From a virus, in the IMG/VR virus record IMGVR_UViG_3300030103_000184, positions 1 to 20,852 of that record: a stretch of 20,852 nt of DNA; one strand, 5' to 3'. The notes under the pieces are model-generated. The model had not been told where the DNA came from and made no database searches. It saw nothing but the letters and a program-made list of their open reading frames with translations. This document shows positions 1 through 12,890 of this stretch, in pieces (position 1 is the first letter of the stretch; every line of letters starts with the position of its first letter). The position numbers were made by a program, and so were the translations under genes.

Positions 1-976
1 TGCCAGTAACCTCAACATCGTTACTAACTGTAACCTTAGTTGATGCAGTTAGGTCTATTGTTGGTGCAGTAATTTCTACCTCTGTATCTGCATCTACATC
101 AAGTTGTCCATCTGTGCTTGAACTTACAGACAAAGCACTATCTCTAAAAGTCATTTTTATTGCGTCATTTAATAATAAAGCAGAGTCATGCACATGAGTT
201 AAAGTTACATCGTTGTTAACACCAAAACCTAACACTGCTGCATCACTATCTAATTTTAAATCATTACTTATAAGAACTGCCGTTGAGGCATTTAAATCAA
301 TAGTTGCTTCACCATCTACTGTCAAAACACCATCTGAGCTTTGATGTACAAAACTAGCTGTATCACCAAACGTAAGTTTATTTGTGCCATTTAAAGTAAG
401 TCCAGTGCCATCTGTATGTGTTAAGGTAGTGTCTGCATCTGCACCAAACTTGACTACAGCACTATCACTAGATAATAATAAATCATCTGATACTGTAAGG
501 TCATCTTGCACTTTAAGATCAATTACACTTAATGAATCTAAAACATCTGTAACTATAGCACCACTGCCACCACCATCTAATGAAACAATTTTAGTATCTC
601 CGTTTGGTATGGTAACTGCTGCTCCAGCACCTGATCCTTGTTTTATAAGAATATTATATGGACCTGAACTACCACTATCGGTAGTTGCATTTTTTATTAT
701 ATGAACTCGTTTCATGGTGTCTGGACCTATAGTAATGGTGCAATCAGAATCCAAAGCTCCAGTATATGAGATATATATTGCTCTTCCTGCATCAGAAGTT
801 GCATCTGCCACTGTCGTTGCATGAGTATTAGCGTTAGTAGTTATGGCCTCCGTGCCAAAACCTAAAGCCTCACCTATAAGTTCTAAGTTTGTGTTGGTTT
901 TAGTACCCCATTGTCCTGACTGCTCGCCAGTATTCATTTCTTCGAGTCTCAAATTGTTTACAAATGTACTTGCCAT
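1..976 (-). CDS. Tail fibre / tail protein, 3' end cut by the window edge
   Basis: The frame is open from an ATG at 976 to base 1, giving 325 codons with no stop. The N-terminus (MASTFVNNLRLEEMNTGEQS, then GQWGTKTNTNLELIGEALG) is a signature I recognise from fibre proteins of marine phages, where it is thought to anchor the protein to the virion. Residues 40-150 are Gly/Ser/Thr-rich beta-type sequence. Residues 166-320 are two tandem copies of a degenerate repeat (LTHTDG / LTHVHD, KLTF / KMTF, TIDLNAS / TIDLTAS), as expected of an elongated trimeric shaft. The host-binding tip would lie beyond the left edge. The ATG shares one base with the upstream stop (TAATG), so translation is probably coupled. 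The virion role is inferred from family resemblance and composition; no receptor domain is visible. Confidence 0.8.
   Translation of the reverse strand, partial: MASTFVNNLRLEEMNTGEQSGQWGTKTNTNLELIGEALGFGTEAITTNANTHATTVADATSDAGRAIYISYTGALDSDCTITIGPDTMKRVHIIKNATTDSGSSGPYNILIKQGSGAGAAVTIPNGDTKIVSLDGGGSGAIVTDVLDSLSVIDLKVQDDLTVSDDLLLSSDSAVVKFGADADTTLTHTDGTGLTLNGTNKLTFGDTASFVHQSSDGVLTVDGEATIDLNASTAVLISNDLKLDSDAAVLGFGVNNDVTLTHVHDSALLLNDAIKMTFRDSALSVSSSTDGQLDVDADTEVEITAPTIDLTASTKVTVSNDVEVTG
17..481 (-). repeat. Tandem coding repeat in the tail-fibre shaft
   Basis: Fibre residues 166-239 (bases 260-481) and 240-320 (bases 17-259) align as two diverged copies of a unit of about 74-81 residues. Shared landmarks in order are LLLSSDSAV / LKLDSDAAV, LTHTDG / LTHVHD, LTF / MTF, SSDGVLTVD / STDGQLDVD, TIDLNAST / TIDLTAST and ISND / VSND. 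The second copy is longer by several residues just before its TIDL segment. The repeat probably reflects shaft lengthening by internal duplication. Confidence 0.65.
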
Positions 977-1833
977 TATGCGACCTCTTGCCAGTTAGCT
1001 GTTTGATTTGGAACTATTAAACTATATACTAATTCCTCTCCAGTGCCACCAGTAGCACTTACTCCCGTTAAAGATACCACACATTGTGGCACTGTGACAA
1101 CACTAGATTGTTGTGCTTGTGCAGCATCTAAGGTGACACTAACGTCAACACTAGCCACAACAGACTCTGAGCCTAATGCAGTTGTTCCAACATTTCCAGT
1201 AACAGATGCTCCAGTTGTTGTTGCTATGTTAGGAATACCAAGAGTATTTCCAAAATAACCCATGAGAGCATGGTTGTAACATTGATAATGCAATGTAGGT
1301 GCTCCGTCTGGAACAGTTATTTCTACATATCTAGTTGTGCCTGCATTAAAAGTAGTGGTGTCAACGTAAGATGACTGAGAAACAGATGAACCATCTATAT
1401 TGTAACTTACACCACTAGTGTATCTTGTATTTTTGTCTTTATCCTCATAAAGATTAATTGGATGACCATCATTACTACTGTCATCTTGATTAAATCTATA
1501 AGTATTACCCTCATATAAAGTTAAAGTAACATCAGAAGTAGCTGTCGATCCACCAATGGCATACTTATTTGTTGATCCTTGATTGTAATATGGATGATTT
1601 GAAGGGTTGCCAGAAACGACAGTAACAGTGAAAGTGACTGTACTAGCACCAGTTTGACTTATGGCAGTGGTTGCAGAAACACCTGTTGCAGCAACATTTA
1701 CACCAGGTATACCATCTGGAGTCCCTAAAGCAGTTGTACCAACAACACCAGTAACAACAACGTCAATCTCTTCATTCCAAGGACCTTGACCCCATGTGCC
1801 TCTACCCCAACCTTGTAAGGTAGAATTTGACAT
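976..1833 (-). CDS. Virion structural protein with a cupredoxin-like domain between repeat segments
   Basis: This 285-residue protein begins GWGRGTWGQGPWN (8-20), an N-terminus I recognise from marine-phage structural proteins. Two flanking regions carry similar segments, VTGVVGTTALG (27-37) and VTGNVGTTALG (211-221), plus TGVSAT at 50-55 and 256-261. Between them, residues 104-198 form a separate beta domain with NTYRFNQDDSSNDGHPINL, VPDGAPTLHYQC and NHALMG. H124, C185, H188 and M191 match the His-Cys-His-Met ligand pattern of cupredoxins, with a shorter C-x2-H-x2-M spacing than plastocyanin. Metal binding is inference. The ATG directly follows the upstream stop, with AAGGA behind it. It probably belongs to the tail, given that a fibre gene follows; the exact location in the virion is unknown. 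Confidence 0.72.
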   Translation of the reverse strand: MSNSTLQGWGRGTWGQGPWNEEIDVVVTGVVGTTALGTPDGIPGVNVAATGVSATTAISQTGASTVTFTVTVVSGNPSNHPYYNQGSTNKYAIGGSTATSDVTLTLYEGNTYRFNQDDSSNDGHPINLYEDKDKNTRYTSGVSYNIDGSSVSQSSYVDTTTFNAGTTRYVEITVPDGAPTLHYQCYNHALMGYFGNTLGIPNIATTTGASVTGNVGTTALGSESVVASVDVSVTLDAAQAQQSSVVTVPQCVVSLTGVSATGGTGEELVYSLIVPNQTANWQEVA

Positions 1834-2286
1834 TTAGGCTATCCTTATAATCGCATTACTTGCATCAGCAGTTGGAAACTGAATTGTGAAAGTGCCAGAT
1901 GTTGAAGTTTTATTAGATGTAAAATCTAACACACAAACTGCTTTATCACTATTAGTGTCATTATAAATTAAAGCACCCATAGCGGTAATTGTTGCAGTTG
2001 TGAAACTTAAGTCAGCAAAATCTGTAAAAGCAGTTGTTCCAGAAGTTGTCGGTGCAACTTTAGTTAAAGTGCCACCACCAGAAGTATAAGAACCACTATT
2101 TGCAATTTCACCAGTTGTCGTAAAAGCAGTCGTTGCTGCTCCTAATGTCGCAGTTGTGGAAGATTTGCCTCCACCACCTTCTGCATATAACGCTAATTTA
2201 AAAGCATTTCCGTTTGTTGCAAAATTGTGTGTGCCTAACAATAACTCTTGTTTAAATGCAGTACACATTGCTTGTGCTATAGCCAT
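1834..2286 (-). CDS. Conserved structural (tail or capsid) protein, function unknown
   Basis: The 150-residue product starts MAIAQAMCTAFKQELLLGTH and ends in FTIQFPTADASNAIIRIA. I recognise both as conserved ends of a marine-phage virion protein family. The middle is low-complexity Thr/Ala/Gly sequence typical of beta-rich phage surface proteins. No catalytic motif is visible. The start is supported by AAGGAG seven or eight bases upstream of the ATG. It sits between a small conserved protein and the cupredoxin-domain protein, in the tail part of the late operon. A virion role is inferred from family pattern and context only. Confidence 0.7.
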   Translation of the reverse strand: MAIAQAMCTAFKQELLLGTHNFATNGNAFKLALYAEGGGGKSSTTATLGAATTAFTTTGEIANSGSYTSGGGTLTKVAPTTSGTTAFTDFADLSFTTATITAMGALIYNDTNSDKAVCVLDFTSNKTSTSGTFTIQFPTADASNAIIRIA

Positions 2287-11685: not shown

Positions 11686-12156
11686 CTATACATAAGAAAT
11701 ATCTGTTGGATCAAGTATTTTTGCAATAATATTATCATCATTTATAAGTCTAAGCTCAAGTCCTTCCACTTTAAACCTATTTCCAGCATATCTGCCCATA
11801 AGTACCCATTCTTTCTCAGAACAGTACGCTCCATTTGGGAATTTATGAGTGTCTTGATATGCGTCTGGACCCATTTTGACAACATAAGCTACTACTGTTG
11901 CAAATGATTCTCTTTCTCTTGTTGCATCAGGTATGTATATGCCACCCTTAGTCTTTTCTTTCGGATAATATGGTATTACCAAAAGTCTATAACCAGTTGG
12001 TTGTGGCAACCTATTCAATGTAGATTCATCTAACTTTGAAGGATCATCTTCATTTTTGTTAGGTTCTTCATTTTTGAATCCTTTGCTTATTGCAGATGGT
12101 GTTGGGTTAATATTTTTTGCCAACAATCTGTCGGGAACATAAAGTTTTTTAGTCAT
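11686..12156 (-). CDS. groES: GroES-like co-chaperonin (Cpn10)
   Basis: The protein has 156 residues, against about 97 for bacterial GroES. Residues 50-150 fit the Cpn10 fold. GYRLLVIPYYPKEKTKGGIY (55-74) includes the likely mobile loop (KTKGGIYIPD) that contacts GroEL. FATVVAYVVKMGPDAY (85-100) follows, then GRYAGNRFKVEGLELRLIND (121-140) and DNIIAKI, which parallels the GroES end. The first 50 residues (RLLAKNINPTPSAISKGFKN and an acidic Asn/Lys part) are an extension absent from host GroES. T4 gp31 is the classical precedent of a phage co-chaperonin that refits host GroEL for capsid folding. The position just before scaffold and capsid supports that role. No GroEL gene is in the window. 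The gene overlaps the upstream stop by 8 nt. Confidence 0.82.
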   Translation of the reverse strand: MTKKLYVPDRLLAKNINPTPSAISKGFKNEEPNKNEDDPSKLDESTLNRLPQPTGYRLLVIPYYPKEKTKGGIYIPDATRERESFATVVAYVVKMGPDAYQDTHKFPNGAYCSEKEWVLMGRYAGNRFKVEGLELRLINDDNIIAKILDPTDISYV

Positions 12157-12342: not shown

Positions 12343-12495
12343 TTAGGTTTCCACACAAGTAGTAAAGCAAACAGGACATTTATATTCTATATAACGATAA
12401 ATACCATACTCTGGTATTGGTTCCTCATGCTCTACTTCTTTCATAGCAACTTTATGAATATAACAAATAGCAACTTTCTTTTTTTCATCTTCCAT
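12343..12495 (-). CDS. Mini zinc-ribbon-like protein, 50 residues
   Basis: This short gene starts in a TAATG junction with the holin-like gene and ends TAA two bases before the next ATG. It encodes MEDEKKKVAICYIHKVAMKE, a middle EPIPEYGIYRYIEYKCPVC, and FTTCVET. C11-x2-H14 and C40-x2-C43 are spaced like the two knuckles of a zinc ribbon, and C47 is a spare thiol. Metal binding is inference. Similar tiny CPVC proteins are common in phages with unknown roles. Tight coupling on both sides supports that it is translated. Confidence 0.65.
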   Translation of the reverse strand: MEDEKKKVAICYIHKVAMKEVEHEEPIPEYGIYRYIEYKCPVCFTTCVET

Positions 12496-12890
12496 TACTT
12501 AGTTAAACCTTTTTGCTTCTCGTATGTCCGCAATCCACCAATTCCTAACATTCCGCCAAGAACAGTTAAAAGTGTACCCATATCAAATTCAGGTAGCTCT
12601 GGTAGCTCTGCACCAGCAAAACTCGCACCAAATATAATTAAATCTTTTACGATAAAATGATATGCAAAGGCAATCGCACAGACCCATCCAACAGCAGGTC
12701 GCCATCCACCCTTAAATATAGAACCACTTGCAGCCTCAGCTTTGTTTATTTCTAACTGGGCAAGTAACGCTTCTTGAGCGTGTTTTTCGGACATCGTAGC
12801 TATCTCGTGGGCGAGTTTTGCTTTTTGATCTGCGTCTGGAATAAATTTATCTAATAGTCCAGTAACTGGACCTATAAGTGCTTGTAACAT
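12495..12890 (-). CDS. Holin candidate, three-helix GTA-holin-like
   Basis: The 131-residue protein has an amphipathic N-terminus (GPVTGLLDKFIPDADQKAKL) and a charged helix (LAQLEINKAEAASGS). GGWRPAVGWVCAIAFAYHFI (61-80) follows, then a hydrophobic segment at about 82-95, a Glu/Pro-rich loop (ELPELPEF), and a final membrane helix at 104-120. GGWRP-x-VGW is the signature I associate with the three-membrane-helix holins first described in gene transfer agents. Holins make the inner-membrane hole that times lysis. AGGAGG five bases before the ATG is one of the strongest ribosome binding sites in the window. No endolysin lies nearby. Confidence 0.78.
   Translation of the reverse strand: MLQALIGPVTGLLDKFIPDADQKAKLAHEIATMSEKHAQEALLAQLEINKAEAASGSIFKGGWRPAVGWVCAIAFAYHFIVKDLIIFGASFAGAELPELPEFDMGTLLTVLGGMLGIGGLRTYEKQKGLTK

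Follow-up and report, generated by a model that had tools for sequence, protein, structure and literature searches.

Does a gene of this marine phage encode a blue-copper domain, and would such a domain be carried on the virus particle? The window, by which we mean the whole stretch of 20,852 nucleotides analysed (IMG/VR record IMGVR_UViG_3300030103_000184), contains on its minus strand a gene in whose product the earlier note, made from the sequence alone, had recognised a cupredoxin-like domain with a His-Cys-His-Met ligand set, inserted between the repeats of a phage structural protein. In this study, we analysed the fold, the ligands, the relatives and the genomic setting of this domain. 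The explanation that we regard as probable is that the gene encodes a tail-region protein of a marine SU10-like podovirus, composed of 22-residue repeats and one inserted cupredoxin domain with an amicyanin-type site, which would be displayed on the virion, bind copper there and serve the particle. The features discussed below are as follows.

2..976, minus strand: downstream neighbour, a fibre-like repeat protein (phrog_31104), 96% identical (over 165 aa) in a relative whose protein lacks the domain
976..1833, minus strand: the whole 285-aa protein, with N-terminal W/G motif, 22-residue repeats, inserted cupredoxin domain, further repeats and conserved C-terminus (PHROG 30742 'tail fiber protein', E 1.2e-22)
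1171..1203, minus strand: repeat VTGNVGTTALG, residues 211-221, past the domain (translation)
1225..1653, minus strand: cupredoxin-fold domain, residues ~61-203 (AF2 model, PDB structural matches, empty-site alignment against locus L509)
1261..1263, minus strand: M191, predicted axial ligand (translation and conservation; replaced by His only in a rare HCHH variant)
1270..1272, minus strand: H188, predicted ligand (translation and conservation)
1279..1281, minus strand: C185, predicted thiolate ligand (translation and conservation)
1462..1464, minus strand: H124, first predicted copper ligand (translation and conservation)
1660..1686, minus strand: repeat unit TGVSATTAI, residues 50-58, one period of 22 residues beyond the first (repeat analysis)
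1723..1755, minus strand: repeat VTGVVGTTALG, residues 27-37 (translation)
1777..1812, minus strand: N-terminal GWGRGTWGQGPW motif, residues 8-19 (invariant W/G columns in an alignment of 29 orthologues)
1834..2286, minus strand: upstream neighbour (phrog_644), 84% identical in the relative without the domain

A removable insert in a repeat protein

Translation of 976-1833 places H124, C185, H188 and M191 at the residue numbers given previously, and the domain is indeed bounded by two similar segments, VTGVVGTTALG from residue 27 and VTGNVGTTALG from residue 211. The third unit at residue 50 sets the repeat period at 22 residues, and at least 10 units with exactly this period stand ahead of the domain in relatives such as that in L076. 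Since the third unit and the arrays of the relatives share the 22-residue period, the segments flanking the domain are the ends of a tandem-repeat array.

Insertion of the domain between repeats was borne out by 22-residue units on both sides and by a natural empty site. The latter was found at positions 2999-3427 of L509, where a syntenic orthologue of 143 aa has the same N- and C-termini and lacks the cupredoxin domain, its upstream and downstream neighbours being 84% and 96% (over 165 aa) identical to those in the window. Further relatives with long repeat arrays are also without it. Because a syntenic relative possesses the same protein minus the domain, the domain is an accessory insert, and its absence from so close a relative indicates that it is not essential. 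In addition, comparison with L033 gave 97% identity for the N flank, 86% for the C flank and 75% for the domain, which has a different, shorter loop there; the domain subtype can therefore switch between close orthologues with nearly unchanged flanks. The domain is a dispensable and exchangeable module. Ig-like accessory domains of phage structural proteins are likewise dispensable beta-sandwich inserts, present or absent between relatives, but they have a different fold and no metal site.

Fold of the domain

The AF2 model of the domain alone, built on a diverse alignment, had a mean pLDDT of 88.9 and a pTM of 0.85, with residues ~73-100 less well modelled than the remainder; in the full-length model, confidence was limited to the domain. 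Comparison of the domain model with the PDB by Foldseek returned the cupredoxin AcoP of Acidithiobacillus ferrooxidans (7z3b/7z3f) first (E 1.3e-3, prob 1.00), and the best 50 matches were nearly all of cupredoxin fold, including rusticyanin, laccases, CotA and similar proteins. The full-length model likewise drew cupredoxin-fold proteins as its best 50 matches, among them nitrite reductase, AcoP and laccases. The cupredoxin-like fold that had been proposed from the letters alone is thus what structure prediction and PDB comparison return, and on these grounds the domain is assigned the Greek-key beta-sandwich fold of the superfamily. Because the scores were modest (no E below 1e-3, TM ~0.5), the PDB match is a fold assignment and not a sign of close homology; AcoP differs in being a cellular respiratory protein with 12-13% identity to the domain. 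In a viral structure library, the same domain was found in a virion protein of S-TIM5 and tail-fibre proteins of P-TIM68 and P-SSM2, among others, with E down to 4e-12.

Sequence relationship to known copper proteins

A chance motif in an unrelated fold might be suspected, since the window copy alone had no significant Pfam match, its score for PF00127 (Copper-bind) being below detection, and the window protein had no significant PDB sequence match with phmmer. In that phmmer search of the whole protein, matches to L31 and ComA (E > 0.1) were taken as chance, and an NCBIfam L31 match (E 0.0026) was far below its cut-off. However, three family members exceed the Copper-bind cut-off of 21.2 bits, namely the lipoprotein domain of a marine bacterium of the Woeseiaceae (24.5 bits) and two copies in a viral contig (L260; 23.6 and 22.4 bits). 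A profile of ligand-bearing members, searched against 177,635 PDB sequences, gave just three matches, to pseudoazurin and two plastocyanins, each weak alone (E 0.22-1.3) and all with the Cys and His in the correct register. Furthermore, profile-profile comparison of the orthologues with true PF00127 proteins gave an E of 1.1e-5 (prob 82), again with Cys and His in register, and a more diverse profile aligned less strongly to true cupredoxins with hhalign (prob 40, E 3e-4). A mixed profile that included ligand-less rows gave chance matches only against the PDB. The profile methods thus suggest a weak tie to plastocyanin and pseudoazurin. As the window copy fails the PF00127 cut-off, we describe it as a relative of this family of plastocyanins and azurins and do not file it as a member. 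Fold search, profile comparison, members above the Pfam cut-off and conservation over hundreds of copies all contradict a chance motif, which is scarcely credible.

An amicyanin-type ligand loop

The window copy has its ligands in the order His...Cys..His..Met, and the earlier note had raised the concern that the shortened C-x2-H-x2-M spacing might mean changed metal binding. This concern is not supported, for the copper ligands of the proven blue copper protein amicyanin are His53, Cys92, His95 and Met98 (PMC12723479). The sequence of amicyanin (PDB 1aac) reads C-x2-H-x2-M, exactly the spacing of the window domain, so this arrangement is the usual one in a proven class of type-1 site and lies within the range of proven members. 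By inspection, the window copy does not match the PROSITE type-1 copper pattern PS00196, C-x(1,2)-[PG]-x(0,1)-H-x(2,4)-[MQ], because its C-Y-N-H has no Pro or Gly between Cys and His; the amicyanin loop is CTPHPFM, with Pro in that place, and that of the window domain CYNHALM. The two proteins are alike in superfamily, in ligand order and in the spacing of the C-terminal three ligands, but amicyanin is a free periplasmic electron carrier and shows no significant full-length sequence similarity.

Ligands are kept or lost together

All four ligands were invariant in 29 diverse orthologues at 58-87% identity, therefore the His-Cys-His-Met (HCHM) set is not a chance motif. Search patterns free of ligand positions recovered 51 distinct copies, 50 with HCHM and one truncated. 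Across all loci, with the phage records and the distant scans counted in, HCHM was present in 276 of 404 distinct copies and HCHH in two, and the four ligands were kept down to ~30% identity; the sampling is partly biased, because some scan patterns covered the ligand loop and two scans started from ligand-less copies. One HCHH variant, in which the axial Met is His and the other ligands are retained, lies at positions 2935-3285 of L228. A further histidine, H80, within PSNHP (residues 77-81, window 1591-1605) and the motif NHPYYN, is invariant among the orthologues, and several cyanophage copies have H[PR] in its place (7 of 35 representatives).

Some 120 copies have lost the site, chiefly the second domain of cyanophage gp7, fibres of the syn9/P-SSM4 type and a P-SS2 protein. 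The expectation of strict conservation in relatives thus stood among the orthologues (29 of 29) and for most copies, and failed in these, in which the domain persists. In the ligand-less copies, Cys and its partners are nearly always altered together; the exceptions are the P-RSM6 and S-SZBM1 copies, in which the first His remains, as well as two P-HM gp7 copies with a His aligned to H188, where the alignment is uncertain. Copies with all or most ligands gone occur in cyanophage gp7 (L083, L168, L167, L174), in fibres (L090, L091) and in P-SS2 (L089), where gp080 is a natural ligand-less copy, and a ligand-less copy sometimes adjoins an intact one within a single gp7 protein. The best tree of 79 representatives has five losses, of which just one is strictly forced by well-supported branches, and an independent-pairs sign test, with few pairs, did not reach significance.

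These data bear on what the site is for. A metal site predicts that its ligands are retained jointly or lost jointly. Under an alternative reading, the fold would be a metal-free structural module, an Ig-like beta-sandwich serving as spacer or adhesion domain, with some other structural reason for the four residues. The persistence of ligand-less copies in gp7 and fibre proteins and the dispensability of the domain in L509 speak for it, and since ~120 copies in some clades persist after loss of the site, the fold can work without metal. In the ligand-bearing lineages, however, all four ligands are present in 35 of the 36 representatives that fall below 65% identity, and in the ligand-less clades the four positions drift together, a joint loss that a purely structural role would not predict; we regard this reading of the window copy as unlikely. 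Occupation in nature by a different metal, for example Zn, might also be considered, for copper is scarce in seawater and His-Cys-His sites bind Zn in vitro, but among the 278 ligand-bearing copies in which all four columns are aligned, 276 have the Met, which favours copper and makes another metal very improbable. Taken together, the domain very probably has the cupredoxin fold with an intact metal site.

Genome context and distribution

The phage of the window has an SU10-type portal and adaptors as well as capsid and fibre genes, and downstream of the gene a near-identical contig (L001) encodes fibre-like, SPRY/DUF7483 and small chaperone-like proteins. The SU10-type portal and adaptors together with the downstream fibre-like genes place the gene within a tail or adsorption module. 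Elsewhere in the window, 4929-5597 matches phrog_3704 'ferredoxin' (E 2e-33) without a Pfam match, a label that looks doubtful; 11686-12156 encodes a GroES/Cpn10-like protein among the head genes, and 12495-12890 a gene-transfer-agent-type holin (GTA_holin_3TM).

A recognisable copy was detected in 325 of 50,697 phage records, nearly all of cyanophages, plus Pelagibacter and Methylophilales phages; among the records searched, the phage relatives came from marine phages only. The cultured phages S-TIM5, P-TIM68 and HTVC028P are among the carriers. The proteins that contain it are annotated as baseplate (gp7, gp9), tail-fibre or virion structural proteins, besides a peptidase S8 fusion, the pelagiphage and Methylophilales-phage relatives being in tail fibres and the cyanophage relatives in gp7, gp9 and tail fibres. 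In Synechococcus phage S-BM3, the domain lies in a protein of ~2,650 aa annotated as peptidase S8 (positions 3838-11784 of L087). The module is therefore, contrary to the earlier supposition, not unusual among marine phages, although some of the copies have lost the metal site. The PHROG 30742 tail fibre family and the S-TIM5, P-TIM68 and P-SSM2 records share a homologous domain in structural proteins but have never been labelled cupredoxin. Consistent with the description as a phage structural protein, the gene has both a PHROG 30742 assignment and portal, capsid, adaptor and fibre neighbours; its position and its tail-fibre and baseplate relatives suggest that the product is part of the virion. 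Virion proteomics exists for S-SM1, S-PM2, Syn9 and P-SS2.

Cellular copies occur in lipoproteins encoded on the chromosomes of bacteria (SAR86, SAR92, Woeseiaceae, OM182) and MGII archaea; at the loci inspected they adjoin ordinary chromosomal genes, and the copies listed have HCHM. Intact ligands are seen in L453, L456, L458, L459 and L460 (bacteria) and in L448, L449 and L450 (MGII archaea). The window domain is one version of a module common to marine phages and to lipoproteins on the surface of marine bacteria and MGII archaea; these lipoproteins may have given rise to the phage module, or the phage module to them.

This distribution also touches on function. Type-1 His-Cys-His-Met sites are electron-transfer sites in amicyanin and plastocyanin, and a copper centre might similarly pass electrons, to or from host surface carriers or to oxygen species, during adsorption or particle survival. 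Yet no redox partner, enzyme domain or second copper site adjoins the domain, and the relatives sit in scaffolds as different as fibre, baseplate and peptidase S8 fusion, so that a redox role is rather unlikely.

Discussion

The cupredoxin superfamily is known; in the literature searched, what appears new is that a module of it is widespread and conserved in phage tail and baseplate proteins and has degenerated there repeatedly. No description of a cupredoxin or blue-copper module in such proteins was found in that literature, many subscription papers lying outside its reach. Fold class, an intact and co-conserved ligand set, insertion and tail-gene context were established computationally.

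Metals on phage tails are not without precedent, because iron is found at HxH sites of tail fibres such as T4 gp37 (PMC11705849). For these fibres, which include that of Alteromonas phage R22Y, a metal on the tail has been either proposed or shown (PMC11705849), but the metal is iron in a histidine-ringed trimeric fibre of different fold and ligands. A copper version of the 'Trojan/Ferrojan horse', a use proposed for tail-fibre iron, could be imagined, in which virion copper is recognised by a host copper-uptake receptor. This iron precedent, proposed for marine phages, and the occurrence of relatives in tail fibres of marine phages only agree with the idea, but no host copper receptor has been identified, and the copper of a cupredoxin is buried and hard to release; we consider such a decoy improbable.

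We favour instead an accessory beta-sandwich domain displayed on the particle. It would be synthesised metal-free in the reducing host cytoplasm and would take up copper after lysis; the bound copper may then lock the sandwich and expose a metal-centred face that could assist the tail in engaging the host surface or persisting there. That the domain is copper-loaded on the virion is somewhat favoured by our estimate, and copper as the metal, the time of loading and a role in attachment or stability are inferred. The wider proposition, that marine phage particles carry functional blue-copper centres which are swapped between tail and baseplate proteins, use copper in infection (attachment, persistence or redox) and have repeatedly given rise to metal-free derivatives, is tentative.

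Since hundreds of marine phages share the module in tail or baseplate proteins, copper on virus particles becomes a concrete and testable idea. Two nearly identical phage loci, one possessing the domain and the other lacking it, form a presence/absence pair and the natural ligand-less copies are ready-made controls, so that function could be tested by comparison. There is a sequence-level case that abundant marine phages, whose hosts are Synechococcus, Prochlorococcus, Pelagibacter and Methylophilales, may have virions that are copper metalloproteins, which would bear on the cycling of trace metals in the sea and on the working of tail proteins.
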